Positions 4,598 to 16,984 of a stretch of DNA of 42,279 nt are shown one piece after another. Source of the DNA: Candidatus Cloacimonadota bacterium (GTDB lineage Bacteria > Cloacimonadota > Cloacimonadia > Cloacimonadales > TCS61); contig JAGGWK010000078.1 in assembly GCA_021157525.1 (NCBI GenBank), forward strand, positions 1 through 42,279, given 5' to 3'. The first letter of the stretch is position 1. Each line of letters starts with the position of its first letter. A program made the translations under genes and the position numbers. The notes beneath the pieces are model-generated. The model worked only from the letters and a program-made list of their open reading frames with translations. It searched no databases and was not told the origin of the DNA.

Positions 4598-4736
4598 TTT
4601 TTACCTTTCCTGCTTATCCTCATTTGTTCTTCCGGCCTGGATGTCAAGTACTCTCATTGTGGTTTTTTAAGATTGACAAGGCGGCCACACTGAAAAGCTT
4701 GGGAATCAGTTATCAAAAGTAATGGAGAATGCATCA
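4598..4736. promoter_or_regulatory. Divergent intergenic region between mnmG and proS, with -35-like TTGACA on each strand
   Basis: Both neighbours are transcribed away from this stretch. A TTGACA lies at 4673-4678 on the plus strand, 59 bases before the proS start. Another lies on the minus strand (plus-strand TGTCAA at 4642-4647), 45 bases before mnmG. No good -10 hexamer follows at 16-18 bases in either case, so only the -35-like half is supported. Confidence 0.35.
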
Positions 4737-6260
4737 ATGGCAAAAAAAGAAAAAACTGCAATTACGCCGACTCGCCAAGAGAACTATCCTGGCTGGTATC
4801 AGCAGGTGGTAAAGGCTGCAGATTTAGCTGAAAATAGTGAAGTGCGGGGATGTATGGTCATAAAGCCCTGGGGTTATGGGATTTGGGAAAACATACAGAG
4901 AACTCTGGACGATAAATTTAAGGCAACCGGACATGTGAATGCCTATTTTCCCCTTTTCATTCCAAAGAGTTATTTTGAAAAAGAAGCAGAACATGTAGAA
5001 GGCTTTGCCAAAGAGTGTGCGGTGGTAACCCATTCACGGCTGGAAGACGATGGCCATGGCGGCTTGAAACCGGCTGGCAAACTCACGGAAGAGCTCATCG
5101 TGCGTCCCACATCAGAAACCATTATCGGTGCCTCCTTTGCCAAGTGGGTGAGCTCCTATCGCGATCTGCCTCTGCTCATCAATCAATGGGCAAACGTGGT
5201 TCGGTGGGAACTGCGCACCCGGCTGTTTTTACGCACTACCGAGTTTTTGTGGCAAGAAGGCCATACCGTTCATGCATCCAGCCAGGAAGCTCAGGATGAA
5301 ACAATGATGATCTTGAAACTCTACGCCGATTTTGCCCGGGAATATCTGGCTATGCCGGTGATCGAGGGGCGGAAAACCGAATCGGAAAAATTTCCCGGTG
5401 CCGAAGCTACCTATACCTTTGAAGCGATGATGCAGGATAAAAAAGCACTTCAGGCCGGAACGTCTCACTTCCTTGGCCAGAAATTTGCCAAAGCATCCAA
5501 TATAAAATTTCAGAGCAAAGAGGGGGTTGAAGAATTTGCCTGGACCACCTCCTGGGGCGTAACCACCCGTCTGATCGGTGCCCTGATAATGACCCATGGG
5601 GACGATAACGGCGTTGTTTTGCCACCGCGGATAGCGCCGGTACATGTAGTAGTGGTGCCCATTTATCGCAATGAAGAAGAGCAGAAAACCGTGATGGCCT
5701 TTGTGCAGGAACTGGAAGATGCTCTCAAAGATATGCGGTATCACGAGCGGGCTTTGCAGGTGAAGGTGGATGACCGGGATCTGCGAGGCGGCGAGAAGGT
5801 GTGGGAATGGATCAAAAAAGGTGTTCCGGTCAGGTTGGAAGTGGGGCCACGAGATGTGGCTGCCGCATCGGTATTTATGGGACGGCGGGACATGGAGCCG
5901 CGGCAGAAATCCGGCATGAAAATGACCGACTTTGTGGAAAACGTCACCGGCATCCTGGACGAAATCCAGAACAATATTTTTAAAAAAGCAGAAACCTTCA
6001 TGAATGAAAACATCATTTCCATGGATGATCATGATGTTTTCTGTGACTATTTTACCCCCAAAAACGCAGAAAACCCCGAAATCCACGGCGGCTTTGCGTT
6101 GGCTCACTGGTGCGGAGATGCATCCTGCGAGGAGAACGTGAAAAAAGACCTGAAAGTGACGATTCGCTGCATCCCGCTGGCACAAGAAGCTGAAGAGGGA
6201 CGCTGCATCGTGTGCGGGAAACCCAGTACAAAACGCGTGATTTACGCAAAGAGTTATTGA
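4737..6260 (+). CDS. proS: Prolyl-tRNA synthetase, archaeal/eukaryote-like (type 3)
   Basis: Charges tRNA-Pro with proline. At 507 residues it lacks the inserted editing domain of the long bacterial enzyme and follows the archaeal/eukaryote-like plan. Class II motifs are visible: RPTSE near residue 123, motif 2 RTRLFLRTTEFLWQEGHT, and motif 3 TSWG followed by GDDNGVVLPPRIAP. After the anticodon-binding domain comes the extra C-terminal domain, with cysteines in WCGDASCEE and CIVCGK and a terminal Tyr, typical of this type. The ATG at 4737 is chosen over one at 4722 because GGAG lies nine bases before it. The S4-CinA gene follows at once. Confidence 0.96.
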   Translation: MAKKEKTAITPTRQENYPGWYQQVVKAADLAENSEVRGCMVIKPWGYGIWENIQRTLDDKFKATGHVNAYFPLFIPKSYFEKEAEHVEGFAKECAVVTHSRLEDDGHGGLKPAGKLTEELIVRPTSETIIGASFAKWVSSYRDLPLLINQWANVVRWELRTRLFLRTTEFLWQEGHTVHASSQEAQDETMMILKLYADFAREYLAMPVIEGRKTESEKFPGAEATYTFEAMMQDKKALQAGTSHFLGQKFAKASNIKFQSKEGVEEFAWTTSWGVTTRLIGALIMTHGDDNGVVLPPRIAPVHVVVVPIYRNEEEQKTVMAFVQELEDALKDMRYHERALQVKVDDRDLRGGEKVWEWIKKGVPVRLEVGPRDVAAASVFMGRRDMEPRQKSGMKMTDFVENVTGILDEIQNNIFKKAETFMNENIISMDDHDVFCDYFTPKNAENPEIHGGFALAHWCGDASCEENVKKDLKVTIRCIPLAQEAEEGRCIVCGKPSTKRVIYAKSY

Positions 6261-6261
6261 T

Positions 6262-7086
6262 ATGAAATTTTGGTTAGATAGAGGCGATTCGATTTTTTTG
6301 TATCAGCTGCTCAAAGCTGCTGGTGTGGAAAATGATTACACCAGGATAAAGTACATTATAGATCGGGGATTTGTGCAGGTAAACGGCGAAAATGTGTTTT
6401 CCCAACGGTATGAAGTAAAAAATGGTGATGTGGTTACCTATAAACAGCGGGTGGTCGAGGGGGAAGAGATAACCTTTGTTATGCATCACATCAAGGTGCT
6501 GGATCGGCGTCAGGAAAATCTGCCGGCCAGTGAAAAAGCCATAGGTAACGTGCGTCATGGCAAGATGAAAGCCTGGAAGGCAAAGCCTCTGACAAGCGAG
6601 CTGGAGTTGGATAAAAGCATTGAGCAAACCACTTTGAAAATCCATGCAAGTCTTCAGAACAAAAAGCTTACCCTTGCGCTGGCAGAATCTTGCACAGGAG
6701 GAATGGTTCAGGAAGTCATCACTCGGCATTCGGGATGCTCAGTCTATTTTCTGGGGGGCATTGTGAGCTATTCCAACGGCATTAAGCAGAATGTTCTGGG
6801 CGTGCCCGGTGAGATTTTGGAGCAACATGGTGCCGTGAGCATGGAAACCGCAGAAGCCATGGCGGCAGGATGCAAAAAGCTTTTTGGTTGCGACATCGCA
6901 GGAGCCGTAACCGGTATTGCCGGGCCCGATGGAGGCAGTGAAGAAAAACCGGTTGGTACCGTACATTTCGCCATAGCAGTGGAAGACAAAGTCATCTCCC
7001 GGATGGTAGAGCTCAGCGGAGATCGGGAATCCATCCGCAAACAGGCAACCTTGCGTCTTTTACGCTTTATTGCTTCCCGATGCTAA
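6262..7086 (+). CDS. Fusion of S4-like RNA-binding domain with CinA/PncC-type NMN amidohydrolase domain
   Basis: The 274-residue protein has two parts. Residues 11-62 look like a small S4 RNA-binding domain: FLYQLLKAAGV, TRIKYIIDRGFVQVNGE, YEVKNGDVVTYK. A linker of about 50 residues follows. Residues 120-274 are a CinA C-terminal domain with AESCTGGM (141-148), GGIVSYSNGIKQNVLGV, GAVSMETAEAMA and GIAGPDGG then KPVGTVHFA. That domain deamidates nicotinamide mononucleotide to nicotinate mononucleotide (PncC) in pyridine salvage. The usual N-terminal CinA pyrophosphatase domain is absent. The frame is continuous, with no stop or shift at the junction. The gene starts one base after the proS stop, so it is likely co-expressed. 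PncC activity is inferred; the role of the S4 part is unknown. Confidence 0.88.
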   Translation: MKFWLDRGDSIFLYQLLKAAGVENDYTRIKYIIDRGFVQVNGENVFSQRYEVKNGDVVTYKQRVVEGEEITFVMHHIKVLDRRQENLPASEKAIGNVRHGKMKAWKAKPLTSELELDKSIEQTTLKIHASLQNKKLTLALAESCTGGMVQEVITRHSGCSVYFLGGIVSYSNGIKQNVLGVPGEILEQHGAVSMETAEAMAAGCKKLFGCDIAGAVTGIAGPDGGSEEKPVGTVHFAIAVEDKVISRMVELSGDRESIRKQATLRLLRFIASRC

Positions 7087-7151
7087 TTTAACCTTGTCAA
7101 AAAACGAGCAATACCCCCAAATGCTCACCTATAAATTTGGAGAATATCAAC

Positions 7152-10100
7152 ATGTTGCGTAAGTGTCTTGTATTGTTGTCTTTGGCTCTTGTAGTATCTG
7201 TAGCGGCGCTGCCGGTAACAGTGGTGGATCAATCGGAATCACAACTGATTCTTCGCTTTGAATTACCCGAGTATCATCTGGAAAAGGTTATTTTTGATGG
7301 AAACGAATTTCAGCAGATAATCTGTGCTGATGCTGATTATTCCAGTGAACCGGGATATCCGCAGATGCCATTTTTCTCTGCATCTCTGGGGTTGCCGGTA
7401 GATGGTGATTTCAGGGTTACCGTTCAGGATGTCCATACCAAAGACGTCTCCTGCGGTACCATCGTGCCTGTTTCCCGGATGGTAGAGGATGGCGATGATA
7501 TCTCAACGGTCGTGGTTCCAGATCCCGCAGCATATCGCTCCCGTCAGTTGTACCCGGGGAAGCGCATCCGCAAAGGAACTGCGGCATTTTTGGGAGACCG
7601 CCATTTCAATTCCATCAATATCAATCCATTTCAATATAATGCCAGAGACGGCGTTCTTACCGTTACCACGGAGATGACGCTGCGGGTGAACATCATCGGT
7701 GTGGAAAATGCATCCAGAGGATATGCTGATGGCTCCAATTTTATCGATGCCATCGGCGATGATTTTTTCCTGAACAATCGATTTTCTTCTTTGTGGCGCA
7801 AACCACGGGAAAAAGCCACACAAACTGCTTCTACCCGCGAAACGACCATCACCCGGTTTCAGTTGGTGGTGGATACCGAGGGGGTGTACAAGATTACGCG
7901 CCAAGACCTGGAAGATGCCGCAGATGCCGATACTTCCGGGGTTTTGCTGGGTTTTGACTGGGATACCGTCGATCCCCGTAAGTTAGAGCTCACCGATTAT
8001 CGCGGCACGGTACCACTCTATTTTCCCGGTGAATCCGATGGGCAATTTGATGCCGATGATTATTTCGAATTTTTCGGTGATCGCCATTATGGTGATAATG
8101 AGTACACTGATGATTACACTGCCGAAAACGTCTATGTCCTTACAGTCACCGATCACTTGGGTAGCCGGCTGGCGGTTGAAAATGGCGGATTGGAAGTGAC
8201 TGATCCCGGGCTGTTTACCGTCCCGGAATCCTATCAGCAAACCTTGCATTTTGAAGAGCAAAATCTGATCGATCAGTTGGGGATTCAGACAACCTATAAT
8301 CCCTATTTTTACAAGGAAGACATCTATTTTTGGGATCGCATCTCCGCACCTGATTTGGCCACTTATTCCTTCAATCTGGAATATCCCGAGGATGTGGATC
8401 GCCGCAAATTTTCTGTGGATTGTTCCCTCTGGGGTGCGACGTACTCCTTATGGTATCCCGGCGGCCCGATTAACCTCAATGCGATAGACCACTATGCCAT
8501 CGTGCGGGTGAATGCATCCAGAGTGGATATACACCAATGGAACGGCCAGCGAGAACAGCGTTTTACCAGCGAAAATGAGCTTTCCAATAATTACCTCAAC
8601 AATGGAGAAAATCTGTTGTATGTGAGCCTTCCCGGGCTTCCCGATGCGCCTTATGAGCAGGTATTGCTGGATTATTTTGACCTTACCTATTGGCGCCAAT
8701 ATAAAACCGACAGCGATTATCTGCGCTTTACCAAGCCACAAAACAAGCCTGTGGGTCTGTTCCAGTTTGAACTGGAAAATTTTTCATCACCGGATATTTC
8801 GGTGTACAAACGTGGCTCGGGGATCATGGAAAACATCCAGATCGAACCCTTTTTCGAGCCCAATGGCGCTCCTTTCAAAGTGACGTTTCAAGATACGGTA
8901 ATCAGTCCCAATGCCGAATATATCGCCGTTACCGAGGCGCAGAAAAAGAAGCCGTTACGCATTATGCTGGATGTACCTTCACAGTTGCACGGTGCCATGA
9001 ATCAGGCCGATTATGTGATCATTACCATCCCGGAATTTGTGCAGGATGCCGGTACCCAGGCGCTGCGAGACATTTGGCAGCAGCAGGGAAAAGCCGTGGA
9101 AGTGGTGAGTGTGCAAGACATCTTCGATGAATTCAATGGGGGCGTGCGCTCTGCCGAAGCCATCAAAGATTTTATCTCCTATGCCTATAACAACTGGGCT
9201 GAGCCACGGCTTACCCATGTGCTTTTGTTAGGGGATGGCATCACAGACGAGCGGGACGACAGCCCGAATCGCAGCTATAATCTGATACCCTTCCACAAGA
9301 TTTGGGCGGATAAACGCGGAGCCATCGCCAGCGACAACTGGTTTGGATGCATCGTAGGGACAGACATGGTTCCCGATGTAAGCATCGGCAGGATAAATGT
9401 GTGGAAAGCGAGTCAACTTGAAGACATTGCCGCCAAAACCATTCAATACATCGAAGAGCCCAATTACGAAGATTTGTGGCACAGCAATATCACCTTTGCT
9501 GCCGGGGGAAATCCCAGTGAAGGTACCTTCTTTGCCAAGCAAAGTGAACGCGTGCGTAAGAACAATATTCCTTCCAGTTTCAATGCCACACGGGTGTATT
9601 GCAATACCGATGACTTACCTGCATCCTATGCCGGGAATACCACTACCCTTATCAGCACCATTAACGATGGCAGCATATACGTACAGTTTATGGGTCATGG
9701 CGGCGGCTATGTGTGGGCTGACTACAACCTGCTGAATAAAGCGGATGTGCAAACCATGAACAACGAAAATCTGCCTGTGGTAGCAAGTTATTCCTGTTTC
9801 GGTTCAGCATTTAACTATCCCCAGAGCTCGTGCATTGGCGAAGAATTGACACTTGCTCCCGGCAAAGGCGCTATCGGTCATATTGGTTTCACAGGTTTTG
9901 GCTACGCCAATTGGATTGATGATTTTGCCAAATATATTACCGAGGGGATGTTCCGGTACGGCGTGGAATCCATCGGTGAAATTGTGACCTACGCCAAAGC
10001 AAAATTCTATACCTCATCCAGTTCGTACGCGGTAAAAAATGCTCTGATAAACGGATGTGCTTACTTGGGCGATCCGATGATACATATGCTGATTCCCACC

Positions 10101-12194
10101 GAAGAACGGCAGGTACTGCTGAATGACTACACGGTTCAGGAGGGTGACACCCTTATCTTTAAATCCCCGGTGGGTGATGGGATAACCAAAGGAAAATTCA
10201 GAATTTATGATGATGATGACAGCCCCATTTCGGCAAATTTTTATTATCCCGAAACGATTTACGCCATCAACGACACCATCTCCATTACCAATGGCAATCT
10301 CTACAAAAATGGCTACACCATGCCCAACGCTACGTCAGATATTTACACCCGCAGAATCAAACTGTTTGCATCCGGCGATGATGGCGAAATTGTTGGAGAA
10401 ACCTATGTGACCGTTGGAAAAGGGAATGCGGCAAACATCGCTATCATTCCCGAACAGCCGACGGTGGCGGATTCCATCCAGATAGAAGCCGATATCTTTG
10501 ATGACGAAGGAGTGGCTGCTGTGGCATGCCAGGTGAAGGTGTGGAGCGTGTACGCCGATCCCTTCAATCCCGAACATACTCCATCGGGTATCTATACCAT
10601 TCCCATGACGCAGGTGGCAAATAATCGCTATCGCTTGCAGCAACCCATTTCCTCCGGGGCGCAAAACTACTCCAGCGGCTACAAATTGGAGATCGATTTC
10701 ACCATTACCGACGACCAGCAACAGGTGGAAACTACCACCTTCCGACGAATGATTCTCATCGAAGGCATCGACCTGACCCTGCAAAATCTGAACTTTGTAG
10801 AGCAGGATAATCAACCGGCAATCAAGGTGCTGGTAACCAATCTCGGCTCCGAGTCTGGCAGCGCCTGCATGCTGAAAGTGTACAACCAGGTGGGAGGTCA
10901 TACCCTTCTGGCACAAAAAGAAATCGCGCCACTTGGCACCTTCGAATCCCGCTGGGAAACCCTCATCATTCCGTTATTGAGCGGATCGGTGCAGTTCCAG
11001 GCCCTGGTGAATGACTCTGGCGAAAGCTTCCCGGAAATCAACCTTTACAATAACATCGTTACCGGCGTACATCAAGAAGTAAACCTGGTGTCCGCCGGCC
11101 TCGCAGCCTCCGCCTTCTCCAGTCTGGATGGTAACCTGGATGTGCAGATTCCCGCGGCAATCCTGCCTCAGGATGCAGTCTTTTCTCTGCAAAATATCGG
11201 GATGCAAACCCCGGTGAATCAGGAAGCGGTGAGCGGAATTATCCTGGCAGACAGCAGTCGCTCCGATGCGTATCAATTGAAGATTTACAACGAAGAGATG
11301 TTGGCCGATTCTACGGGATTGCTGCCAAACAACAACCGCATCGAGCTGACTTTTCACTACCATCCCACCGATTCCCTCACCCAGGTTGGCACCGATGCCT
11401 ATGCTGTTTATCGCTGGGAAGATGATTTTGATAAATGGATCTTTTACGGTGGCGAGGTGTACCCCGATGCCAAAACAGTGCGCTTCAATACCAACCGGCT
11501 GGGAACGTTTACCATCCTGAAAAATGCTGACGAAATCCCTCCCTACATCGACGCCAATGTGGAAGGCCAGGAATTCACCTACGGCGGGTACATCTCTCGC
11601 AACGGCATTATCTCGTTCCTCCTCTCAGACGCAAACGGTATCGACATGTTTAACAATAAGCTGCATCTTGCACTGGATGGTGAGACGGTGAGTGCAGAAG
11701 AGTATTCAATCTCCCTTTCTCAGGGAAATCTCACCAACATTCCCATCAAATATCAGTTGAACAATCTGGACAAAGGCAGCCACAAAATCAGTGTGGATTG
11801 CACCGATTGCAACGGAAATTATGCGGTGCGGGAAATCGATTTTGAGGTGAGCACCTCCTTCGATATTATCAATGTGGCCAACTACCCAAACCCCGTGAAG
11901 TCGAAAACCATCAAGGCGGTAAACGCCGGGCGAACCCGCTTTACCTACGTTCTTACCGATGATGCCGACGATGCAACGATAAAGGTGTACACTGTGAGCG
12001 GACGCCTGGTGAAGACCTTTAAGCATATTCCCTCCACCATCGGATATCATGAATTTCCCCGCACCGTAAGTGGCTGGGATTGTACTGATGAAGAGGGATT
12101 TAACCTGTCAAACGGTGTCTACTTTTACAAAATAACTGCCAAACGCGGCTCGAAGAAAATAGAAAAAATAAAAAAAATGGCGATCTTGAAGTAA
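7152..12194 (+). CDS. porU: PorU-like type IX secretion sortase, gingipain (C25) peptidase family
   Basis: A 1680-residue exported protein with signal peptide MLRKCLVLLSLALVVSVAALP. The ATG at 7152 has GGAG nine bases upstream; an in-frame TTG at 7137 includes that site and is rejected. The catalytic region resembles gingipain/PorU: His849 in FMGHGGGY and Cys882 in ASYSCFGSAF, 33 residues apart as I recall for RgpB and PorU. Other family blocks are VLLLGDG, SDNWFG, VSIGRI and GAIGHIGFTGFG. The end (from NVANYPNPVKSKT) is a FlgD-like sorting-tail domain. PorU cleaves the tails of type IX substrates at the outer membrane and attaches the proteins to the surface. The length is well above the roughly 1150-1300 of Bacteroidota PorU, with extra beta-sandwich domains after the protease. 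PorV follows directly. Function is inferred from motifs and context. Confidence 0.85.
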   Translation: MLRKCLVLLSLALVVSVAALPVTVVDQSESQLILRFELPEYHLEKVIFDGNEFQQIICADADYSSEPGYPQMPFFSASLGLPVDGDFRVTVQDVHTKDVSCGTIVPVSRMVEDGDDISTVVVPDPAAYRSRQLYPGKRIRKGTAAFLGDRHFNSININPFQYNARDGVLTVTTEMTLRVNIIGVENASRGYADGSNFIDAIGDDFFLNNRFSSLWRKPREKATQTASTRETTITRFQLVVDTEGVYKITRQDLEDAADADTSGVLLGFDWDTVDPRKLELTDYRGTVPLYFPGESDGQFDADDYFEFFGDRHYGDNEYTDDYTAENVYVLTVTDHLGSRLAVENGGLEVTDPGLFTVPESYQQTLHFEEQNLIDQLGIQTTYNPYFYKEDIYFWDRISAPDLATYSFNLEYPEDVDRRKFSVDCSLWGATYSLWYPGGPINLNAIDHYAIVRVNASRVDIHQWNGQREQRFTSENELSNNYLNNGENLLYVSLPGLPDAPYEQVLLDYFDLTYWRQYKTDSDYLRFTKPQNKPVGLFQFELENFSSPDISVYKRGSGIMENIQIEPFFEPNGAPFKVTFQDTVISPNAEYIAVTEAQKKKPLRIMLDVPSQLHGAMNQADYVIITIPEFVQDAGTQALRDIWQQQGKAVEVVSVQDIFDEFNGGVRSAEAIKDFISYAYNNWAEPRLTHVLLLGDGITDERDDSPNRSYNLIPFHKIWADKRGAIASDNWFGCIVGTDMVPDVSIGRINVWKASQLEDIAAKTIQYIEEPNYEDLWHSNITFAAGGNPSEGTFFAKQSERVRKNNIPSSFNATRVYCNTDDLPASYAGNTTTLISTINDGSIYVQFMGHGGGYVWADYNLLNKADVQTMNNENLPVVASYSCFGSAFNYPQSSCIGEELTLAPGKGAIGHIGFTGFGYANWIDDFAKYITEGMFRYGVESIGEIVTYAKAKFYTSSSSYAVKNALINGCAYLGDPMIHMLIPTEERQVLLNDYTVQEGDTLIFKSPVGDGITKGKFRIYDDDDSPISANFYYPETIYAINDTISITNGNLYKNGYTMPNATSDIYTRRIKLFASGDDGEIVGETYVTVGKGNAANIAIIPEQPTVADSIQIEADIFDDEGVAAVACQVKVWSVYADPFNPEHTPSGIYTIPMTQVANNRYRLQQPISSGAQNYSSGYKLEIDFTITDDQQQVETTTFRRMILIEGIDLTLQNLNFVEQDNQPAIKVLVTNLGSESGSACMLKVYNQVGGHTLLAQKEIAPLGTFESRWETLIIPLLSGSVQFQALVNDSGESFPEINLYNNIVTGVHQEVNLVSAGLAASAFSSLDGNLDVQIPAAILPQDAVFSLQNIGMQTPVNQEAVSGIILADSSRSDAYQLKIYNEEMLADSTGLLPNNNRIELTFHYHPTDSLTQVGTDAYAVYRWEDDFDKWIFYGGEVYPDAKTVRFNTNRLGTFTILKNADEIPPYIDANVEGQEFTYGGYISRNGIISFLLSDANGIDMFNNKLHLALDGETVSAEEYSISLSQGNLTNIPIKYQLNNLDKGSHKISVDCTDCNGNYAVREIDFEVSTSFDIINVANYPNPVKSKTIKAVNAGRTRFTYVLTDDADDATIKVYTVSGRLVKTFKHIPSTIGYHEFPRTVSGWDCTDEEGFNLSNGVYFYKITAKRGSKKIEKIKKMAILK

Positions 12195-14686: not shown

Positions 14687-16984
14687 ATGGATCAGAATTA
14701 TCAAGAAACCTATGACGAGCAGGAAATAAAACTCAGTGATTATCTGCATATAATTCAGCGATTTAAATGGCTGTCTCTAACGATATTTGTGTTGGTTTTC
14801 CTGGCTGCGGTTATTTATACGTATCGTGCACCCCGTATCTATCAGGCCTCGGCCAAGATATTACTGGAAACCAGCAAATCCACCGATTTCCTTTTTTCAC
14901 CTATGGGCAATCAGGGTACCTCGATAAACAACAATATTCAGATAATCCAGAGTACTCCTGTGATGAAGATTGCTCATGAAATTATGGAGAATGATGTCTA
15001 TTATTCTACGTTTCCCATAAACGGAACCGAAGAAGAACCGGTGAACCCGATTGGATACCTGAAGAGCAGAATCTCCATAGATAATGAGCGGGAAACCGAC
15101 ATTCTTGCCATCAGCTATGAATCCACCAATCCCCGGGAAGCTCAGGCAATGGCTAACGCAACAGCCTACGCTCTTATTCAGGATGACACCAATAACGCCC
15201 GGACGGAATTTCGTAAAACCCGGGAATTTCTGGAAAACCAGCTGGATGAAAAAGAGCGGTTACTCCGATTGGCTGAAGAAGACTTGCGGGCCTACAAAAT
15301 CGATAACAAAATCTCCATACTTTCTGAAGAAACAACGAAGCTCATCGAGCAGTCGTCCGAACTGGAAAAACTGCTGGCTGAAGCTCAGACGGATTATGCG
15401 GTGGCATCTAATCATCTGGCCTTTTTGAAAAAAGAACTTACCAGGCAAGACACACTTCTGTCTGATGTGAATGCCGTATTGACCACGCCACTGCTGGAAC
15501 AGCTCCGTCAGGAGATTGTGCAAAATCAGACACGGTATGTCAATTTGCTCACCAAATCCGATTACCCGCCAGACCATCCCGAGCTAGTGAATCTTAATCG
15601 CTCGATAGAGAGTGCAAAGAAGCAACTGAATACAGAAATCCAGCGCGTTATTCTGGTAAAAGCCGGTACCACCGATCCATTGGTGTATCGCAGTGACCTG
15701 ATAGCGAAAATATCTCAGGGAGCAATCGAAGAGAATATTAGCCACTCCAAAGTAACCAGTTTGGAAATGGCTGTTGATGAGTACAACAAGAAGATGGCTG
15801 TATTGCCAGATACCGAGATTCAGTTAGCTCGTTTACAACGGAATTTCAGGATTAATGAGAAAATCTACTCCATGTTAATGGAAAAATATGAAGATGCAAA
15901 GATCGCTGAGAAATCCAAGATCGGTAATGTTCGTATCATAGAAGAAGCCAATATACCAGGTCGCCCAATTAAGCCCAATAAAAAGATGAACTATCTTATC
16001 GGATTGGTACTTGGCTTGGGTTTGGGATTCGGAGCGGCATTGCTCATACATTCTCTGGATACAAAATTACGCACGTTTGACGATGTGAAGCAGAATGTGA
16101 CGATGAAGGTACTCGGAACGATACCCTTCATTCATGTGTTTGACGCAGACATCGAAACGATAGAAAAGCAATTAAATGCCGAAAAAGATCCCCAAATTAA
16201 AGGGAAAATAAAAGACCATCTGCAGTATGTGCAGTCGCGACTGATCTCTTCTTACGCTCCCAAAGCCTCGGCTTCGGAAGCCTTCAGAACGTTGCGTACC
16301 AGTATCGTTGCCGTAAGAAAATCCGGTGGTTCACAAACAATTCTTGTCACCAGCTCAGGTCCAGGAGAAGGGAAATCGACGATCCTCTCCAATCTGGCTA
16401 TCACATTGGCTCAGATGGATTCCCGCGTTATTGTTGTGGATCTTGACCTCCGCCGTCCTGTGTTACACAGTTTCTTTGGCTATGATAAAGAGAACGGTAT
16501 CAGCGATTTCCTGATGGACCGTTCTATGGAATTAGAACCACTGATTCGTAAAACCACAATTCCGAATCTGGACCTCATTACCAGCGGGCTGATACCTCCA
16601 AACCCGTCCGAATTGCTCGCATCATCCAGACTGGATGAAATGATAACTCTACTGAAACAGCACTATGACTATATCCTGTTGGATGCGCCTCCCGTGATCG
16701 CGGTTACCGACGCCCTCATTCTCAGCGCAAAAGTGGATATCCGGACTTTGGTGATTCGTATAAATCAGGCTGACAAGGCAGCGGTGAAACGGGCTGAAGA
16801 ATTGTTAGACAACATCAGCATCGATATCGATGGCTGTATTGTAAACGGGGTCATTCCTCAGAAATACTACAGTGCAAGTGAATACTACTATTACTATTAC
16901 TATTACTACTACAATGAAGGCTCAAAGAATAAACGCAGAAAAAAATCTGAGCAAAAAAGCTATATCAACAACAGCAAACGCTAA
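14687..16984 (+). CDS. wzc: Wzc-like polysaccharide copolymerase with bacterial tyrosine kinase domain
   Basis: 765 residues. The N-terminal Wzz-type chain-length domain starts at KLSDYLHIIQRFKWL, with membrane helix LSLTIFVLVFLAAVIYTY. A long coiled coil (about 160-420) follows, then a second helix LIGLVLGLGLGFGAALLI. The cytoplasmic BY-kinase domain has Walker A SSGPGEGKS (from residue 556), Walker A' VVDLDLRRP and Walker B LLDAPP (from 664). The tail holds ten consecutive Tyr (733-742) and a basic end, KNKRRKK. Such kinases phosphorylate their own tyrosine clusters to control assembly and export of capsule or exopolysaccharide. The upstream SLBB gene is the likely partner, 12 bases away. 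No glycosyltransferases lie in the window, so the polymer is unknown. Confidence 0.93.
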   Translation: MDQNYQETYDEQEIKLSDYLHIIQRFKWLSLTIFVLVFLAAVIYTYRAPRIYQASAKILLETSKSTDFLFSPMGNQGTSINNNIQIIQSTPVMKIAHEIMENDVYYSTFPINGTEEEPVNPIGYLKSRISIDNERETDILAISYESTNPREAQAMANATAYALIQDDTNNARTEFRKTREFLENQLDEKERLLRLAEEDLRAYKIDNKISILSEETTKLIEQSSELEKLLAEAQTDYAVASNHLAFLKKELTRQDTLLSDVNAVLTTPLLEQLRQEIVQNQTRYVNLLTKSDYPPDHPELVNLNRSIESAKKQLNTEIQRVILVKAGTTDPLVYRSDLIAKISQGAIEENISHSKVTSLEMAVDEYNKKMAVLPDTEIQLARLQRNFRINEKIYSMLMEKYEDAKIAEKSKIGNVRIIEEANIPGRPIKPNKKMNYLIGLVLGLGLGFGAALLIHSLDTKLRTFDDVKQNVTMKVLGTIPFIHVFDADIETIEKQLNAEKDPQIKGKIKDHLQYVQSRLISSYAPKASASEAFRTLRTSIVAVRKSGGSQTILVTSSGPGEGKSTILSNLAITLAQMDSRVIVVDLDLRRPVLHSFFGYDKENGISDFLMDRSMELEPLIRKTTIPNLDLITSGLIPPNPSELLASSRLDEMITLLKQHYDYILLDAPPVIAVTDALILSAKVDIRTLVIRINQADKAAVKRAEELLDNISIDIDGCIVNGVIPQKYYSASEYYYYYYYYYYNEGSKNKRRKKSEQKSYINNSKR
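16883..16912 (+). repeat. TAC/TAT codon repeat encoding ten tyrosines
   Basis: Ten consecutive Tyr codons (TAC and TAT mixed) near the 3' end of the tyrosine-kinase gene. The tract is a trinucleotide-like repeat that could expand or contract without shifting the kinase frame, changing the number of autophosphorylation sites. It ends two bases before the likely ispE start codon. Confidence 0.85.

Follow-up and report, generated by a model that had tools for sequence, protein, structure and literature searches.

An S4_2 domain fused to a PncC-type NMN deamidase domain behind proS in one family of Cloacimonadota

The fusion gene and its locus

An S4_2 domain and a complete CinA C-terminal (PncC) domain are joined in a single 274-aa protein encoded in the window, a stretch of 42,279 nucleotides from a Cloacimonadota genome. 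The S4-PncC protein is a real, lineage-conserved combination of two known parts and is undescribed in the literature searched. It is, by a little better than an even chance, a bifunctional protein in which an ordinary NMN deamidase and a YbcJ-like RNA- or ribosome-binding factor are combined. The features of the locus, in window coordinates, are:

4722..6260, + strand: proS (prolyl-tRNA synthetase); Pfam ProRS-C_1, tRNA-synt_2b and HGTP_anticodon
6262..7086, + strand: S4_2-PncC fusion gene, 274 aa; fused in this way in 36 of the family's 40 genomes, the window's included
6280..6456, + strand: S4_2 domain, residues 7-65; PF13275 E=1.8e-8, S4 fold match, YbcJ 1p9k profile match
6448..6483, + strand: insertion of 12 residues (63-74) within the S4 domain; by alignment, in the window's protein only, among 36 fusions
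6556..6588, + strand: tail/linker motif H99-G100-x4-W105-x2-K108-P109; conserved in fusions, low model confidence
6631..7074, + strand: CinA C-terminal / PncC NMN deamidase domain, residues 124-271; PF02464 E=1.6e-53, 2a9s fold match Z 28.2
6688..6690, + strand: predicted catalytic serine S143 (S31 of AtCinA) in AESCTGG; 36/36, by alignment to 2a9s
6784..6786, + strand: predicted catalytic lysine K175 (K63 of AtCinA); 36/36
7137..12194, + strand: C25-family peptidase, downstream; Pfam Peptidase_C25 E=1.9e-79, synteny

The fusion gene is one unbroken frame from ATG to stop. It begins at 6262, a single base after the proS stop at 6260, just as the original prediction had placed it, and proS lies immediately 5' of the fusion in all 36 loci with gaps of -1 to 314 nt. 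A promoter and terminator scan of the locus stayed within chance and supported no separate promoter for the fusion. The C25 peptidase is a recurrent downstream neighbour of the locus across families, with purD standing between the two in other families. The window's peptidase is a 1685-aa, gingipain-like protein with a propeptide and a C-terminal FlgD-Ig-like domain; its sorting-domain match is under the cut-off. Elsewhere in the window (14687-16984) a 765-aa protein carries Wzz, GNVR and AAA_31 domains and, going by the family names, resembles tyrosine-kinase-type chain-length regulators of polysaccharide export.

The predicted union of an S4-type module with a complete PncC domain was borne out, since both parts score over their Pfam cut-offs and the first has an S4 fold match. 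The S4_2 model (PF13275; cut-off 24.6 bits) matches residues 7-65 with 34.6 bits (E=1.8e-8), and the classic S4 model (PF01479) reaches only 14.9 bits, under its cut-off of 22.8. S4 similarity had been placed at residues 11-62; the similarity is there, but its type is S4_2, and in the predicted structures the domain spans about residues 1-82. CinA (PF02464) is complete over residues 124-271 with 180.9 bits against 23.5 (E=1.6e-53), and the NCBIfam PncC_domain model scores 150.3 bits, above its cut-off of 68.9. The usual N-terminal COG1058/MoCF_biosynth domain of CinA (PF00994) has no Pfam match in the protein and none anywhere in the window's genome (98.5% complete), in agreement with the claim that the pyrophosphatase part is missing. 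Pfam gives no KH-type match in the protein either. The fusion holds the only CinA-domain match in this genome.

Conservation within the phylum

The window's protein finds matches in 109 of 124 genomes of the phylum. The window's own family (f1) is represented by 40 genomes; 37 have a match, and in 36, belonging to 17 of the 18 genera, the fusion is complete, so that the conservation in the lineage that was to be checked is borne out. The 37th match (G069) lies at a contig end that cuts the locus after the S4 part, and three genomes that are 80, 82 and 73% complete (G071, G074, G095) have no match. Outside the family, no match among the 124 genomes covers S4 and PncC in one frame.

Two other explanations were rejected. 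A frameshift or an assembly chimera is ruled out by the intact frame in 36 of the 40 family genomes. The original prediction would have been overturned by separate genes in relatives together with a frameshift here; the genes are indeed separate in sister families, but the frame is intact. An internal start that would make a separate PncC protein was also discarded, as a start-like codon occurs at any given linker position in at most 8 of 36 fusions.

Compared pairwise, the 36 fusions are on average 47% identical in S4, 32% in the linker and 53% in PncC. In 19 close pairs dN/dS has a median of 0.050 in S4 and 0.082 in PncC, and of 0.101 in the linker (18 pairs); the pairs are not independent, 16 of the 19 lying within one genus, and in parts dS reaches values of about 2. 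Strong purifying selection acts on the S4 part, which is constrained about as much as the enzyme part.

Predicted structure

AlphaFold models have a mean pLDDT of 89.6 for the whole protein and 88.3 for the S4 part alone. The whole-protein model has a pTM of 0.60, with an uncertain mutual placement of the S4 and PncC parts. The stretch between them (residues 85-106) has a pLDDT below 50 in this model and of about 60-75 in the S4-only model. With such low linker confidence, the models predict no rigid coupling of the two parts.

In structure comparison the PncC part matches AtCinA (2a9s) with Z 28.2 and an rmsd of 2.0 over 162 residues. The S4 part matches TyrRS (6hb6; Z 9.2, rmsd 1.9 over 69), RsuA (1ksk; Z 9.0, rmsd 1.8 over 61), Hsp15 (5z81; Z 8.8, rmsd 1.7 over 64) and RqcP (7aqc; Z 8.6, rmsd 1.4 over 62). 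S4-domain matches, ribosomal proteins included, range from Z 8.4 to 9.6 with the whole model and from 8.1 to 9.1 with the S4-only model; they are tied among themselves, and a Z near 8 is modest. YbcJ (1p9k), the best match by sequence, is absent from the 50 rows listed in either structure comparison.

The PncC half

Described NMN deamidases are single-domain, COG1058/MocF-fused or N-terminally extended proteins (PMC3855486). The S4-PncC protein differs from these described forms by its N-terminal S4_2 domain; the same source mentions occasional fusions of the CinA domain to other domains, which were left out of that study. It shares with AtCinA and with E. coli YgaD PncC the complete domain, the Ser/Lys dyad and the phosphate-binding residues, and with full-length CinA (TtCinA, 4ct8; COG1058, KH-type and PncC parts) the same PncC domain. 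In contrast to full-length CinA, it lacks a COG1058-type domain, as does the genome, and the protein has no KH match.

Seventeen conserved positions of AtCinA are listed in PMC5384747. Fifteen are identical in 36/36 fusions, and the M88 position is kept in 35/36, with one Leu. By gapless alignment the window's residue number equals the number in that paper plus 112, and the 2a9s chain file counts the paper's number plus 2. Accordingly numbered, S143, K175, S160, Y170 and T217 match AtCinA Ser31, Lys63, Ser48, Tyr58 and Thr105 in every one of the 36 fusions. The phmmer alignment to 2a9s stops before the position of R145; its counterpart is R255 or R259, each an arginine in 36/36. In AtCinA, S48, Y58 and R145 hold the NMN phosphate (PMC5384747), and the conservation of these residues, with one of two arginines for R145, fits free NMN as substrate. 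Conserved residues are not proof of activity, as E. coli has inactive paralogues (PMC3855486). Even so, the PncC half is very probably active as an NMN deamidase. The window's genome has an NAD-dependent DNA ligase (ligA), nadD and nadE, with which ordinary recycling of NMN by way of NaMN can proceed.

S4 domains bind structured RNA, and NMN is a product of NudC. Both facts are general and not specific to this protein, and both would agree with an RNA-directed chemistry, in which the S4 half would guide the deamidase to RNA that is NAD-capped or bears NMN, or to NMN freed by decapping. A role on NAD-capped RNA had been proposed in the original prediction. However, the NMN phosphate is not free in NAD-capped RNA, yet the residues that would hold it are kept, and a NudC-type zinc ribbon was found in 1 of 39 genomes of the window's family (G066; 5 of 14 control genomes have one) and not in the window's genome. 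The proposal fares poorly on both counts, and such chemistry is most improbable.

An RNA-binding module on this enzyme had also been called unexpected. The S4 module is real, but in TtCinA a KH-type domain, with a fold thought to close the pyrophosphatase site, already lies between the COG1058 and deamidase parts (PMC4246079), and cinA operons with RNA-repair genes are known (PMC3680494). The novelty of an RNA-binding-like fold is softened by these two precedents.

The S4 half

The solved structure that best matches a profile built from 18 S4 parts (11 of the fusion family and 7 stand-alone) is that of E. coli YbcJ (1p9k), with E=7.8e-9. The NCBIfam YbcJ model (NF008561) gives the fusion 14.4 bits, far under the equivalog cut-off of 95. 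By sequence comparison, then, the fused S4 is a relative of YbcJ at the domain level and not a YbcJ: the two have the S4_2 domain (PF13275) in common, whereas the fused S4 has a longer tail with an H...W..K motif and is joined to an enzyme. RqcP/YabO and Hsp15 have the S4 fold in common with the fused domain. The window's genome encodes another S4 protein elsewhere (L004, contig C38, 464-724, - strand), of 86 aa and RqcP/YabO size, and it is therefore improbable that the fused domain is the genome's RqcP.

The tail motif is nearly uniform in the fusions, with H99, G100 and W105 in 36/36, K108 in 31/36 and P109 in 32/36. Seven stand-alone S4 proteins have the W and K in 7/7, the H in 6/7 and the G in 1/7, and an eighth (G058) ends in ...KWVEKPIK, which puts the tail W in 8/8. 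This distribution suggests that the H...W..K part predates the fusion and probably belongs to the S4 protein, and that the G is fusion-typical.

The net charge of the fused S4 has a median of 0 (range -3 to +7) and that of the linker a median of +2 (range -4 to +8); the stand-alone forms, at -2 to +7, overlap the fused ones. With a net charge near zero, strong RNA binding by the fused S4 is not evident from charge. YbcJ is reported to associate with the 50S subunit (PMC11066096, citing Jiang 2007) and to interact physically with RluB, DeaD, SrmB and RNase E, and its deletion to lower protein synthesis and fidelity (PMC2672614). From fold and conservation, the S4 half probably binds RNA.

Origin of the fusion

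In six genomes of sister families a stand-alone S4 gene (106-146 aa) lies directly before a full-length cinA. Five of them (G054 and G055 of family f5, G056 and G057 of f6, G061 of f10) have the order proS, S4, full-length cinA (407-424 aa), so that cinA occupies the same place behind proS as the fusion does. Judged from the first start codon, three genomes (G054, G055 and G061) have a 4-nt overlap of S4 with cinA and G056 a 1-nt overlap; in G057 a gap of 9 nt separates the two genes. In the sixth genome (G058, f7), whose contig starts just ahead of S4, the 146-aa S4 gene extends 37 nt beyond the first cinA start. Two further genomes (G050 of f3, G062 of f10) retain proS-S4 with cinA on a different contig.

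Other arrangements occur at the same locus. In G001 and G011 (f2) cinA comes next to proS with no S4 between them, and purD (GARS domains) and the C25 peptidase follow; the full-length CinA of G011 consists of MoCF, a CinA_KH match just under the cut-off (25.7 vs 27 bits) and CinA. In G052 and G053 (f4) the order is proS, a plain PncC of 190-194 aa, and purD. The plain PncC genes of f4 are at L084 2946-3518 (G052), L085 47-592 (G051) and L086 5464-6048 (G053); they encode 181-194 aa beside purD, proS is upstream in both loci that reach that far, and PF00994 is absent from the f4 genomes. In f4, the COG1058 part of CinA was lost without S4 fusion. The proS locus presents an evolutionary series: full CinA alone, separate S4 plus full CinA, plain PncC, and fused S4-PncC.

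PF00994 is absent from 38 of the 40 genomes of the window's family. The other two have frames of 193 aa (G063) and of 390 and 160 aa (G091), which from their sizes we take to be MoeA/MogA and not CinA. In the simplest history, cinA apparently lost its COG1058 and KH parts, and the fusion arose as S4 was thereby joined to PncC.

In the PncC tree (136 rows) six non-fused proteins from within the phylum fall together with the 36 fusions, in a group of 42 rows with support 91/83; the tree is weak, this support being below the program's star, the bootstrap unsettled and many forks weak. The fusions never form one clade: 3 label changes are needed, and 0% of 200 bootstrap trees need only 1. Fourteen of the 20 other same-phylum proteins fall outside the fusion-containing group. 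Two of the f4 proteins (G052, G053) go with the window's protein (88/78) and the third (G051) with f2 (99/93), so that COG1058 loss or fusion may have happened more than once. The tree does not show a single fusion event. Transfer of a single-domain PncC is not favoured: the locus is syntenic, and the fusions are grouped, in this weak tree, with same-phylum proteins only.

The S4 part might be a structural substitute that no longer binds RNA and serves folding, dimerisation or stability in place of the lost KH-type/COG1058 half. The near-zero charge of the fused S4, the position of the KH-type domain in TtCinA and the near-threshold CinA_KH of G011 are in line with this idea. However, single-domain PncC proteins such as AtCinA work without an extra domain (PMC5384747), f4 has a plain PncC at the same locus, an S4 with the same tail exists as a separate protein in sister families, and the low-confidence linker predicts no rigid coupling. 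A structural role of this kind is unlikely.

It is equally unlikely that the fusion is neutral, coupled neighbours in an operon having been joined by chance so that the halves act independently and their linkage is meaningless. The overlap of S4 stop and cinA start by 1-4 nt (G054, G055, G056, G061) is a place where a deletion could join the two genes, and f4 demonstrates that the N-terminal CinA part can go without any fusion. Against neutrality, 17 genera have retained the fusion, and its linker motif is invariant; since most of this motif predates the fusion, the motif itself is no argument for coupling.

A proposed bifunctional protein

In the favoured explanation, the C-terminal half would be an ordinary active PncC that converts NMN and water to nicotinate mononucleotide and ammonia. 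The NMN would come chiefly from NAD-dependent DNA ligase and be returned to NAD through NadD and NadE. The N-terminal half would be a complete YbcJ-like S4 protein, formerly a separate gene between proS and cinA, and would keep working as an RNA-binding factor, probably at the ribosome, by means of its S4 fold and H...W..K tail. The two would have been brought together when the downstream cinA lost its COG1058 pyrophosphatase and KH parts. The S4 half would then most likely hold the deamidase on ribosomes or other structured RNA and leave its reaction unchanged.

The value of the physical coupling is a separate matter, and a functional benefit from it is somewhat doubtful. Tethering near ribosomes, raised in the original prediction, may occur and is the preferred reading. 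In its full form, an NMN salvage enzyme would be docked on the translation machinery via the YbcJ-like S4 and the H-G...W..K tail, linking NAD recycling to the state of ribosomes or RNA; this is a tentative proposal, a shade less probable than a benefit of any kind. If the S4 does keep the enzyme on ribosomes or other RNA, the protein would tie NAD recycling to translation physically and directly, which would be unusual. If there is no RNA docking, it would be a clean example of fusion by loss of a domain between two adjoining genes.

The combination outside the phylum

The combination was also sought in other bacteria, starting from at least 588 confirmed PncC matches (at least 596 stretches). 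Among the best 80, a sample and not a census, with none titled as the window's phylum, none covers the S4 part; the earliest start is at residue 59. Flanks of up to 3 kb around these 80 loci contain no S4 relative at E 1e-3 (0/80). A profile of S4 plus tail found matches in 12 of 49 genomes from among the same best-80 set, with no PncC in the flanks covered around those S4 loci (0/12). The same profile had no match at E 1e-6 in 132 genomes of the phylum of G152, a set without a positive control.

No paper on S4 with CinA was found among the open-access papers searched, and the term 'S4 domain' is absent from the main text of PMC3855486. An automatic listing of the S4_2 and CinA combination in domain-architecture databases may exist.

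An S4_2 domain occurs in another company in the genome of the Shewanella mangrovi locus L154. A 215-aa protein encoded there (L187, 1114-1761, - strand) combines S4_2 (E=1e-23) with RraB, the regulator of ribonuclease activity B (E=8.5e-23). Taken with the YbcJ-RNase E interaction reported in PMC2672614, this protein gives a hint that S4_2 proteins may act close to the degradosome.
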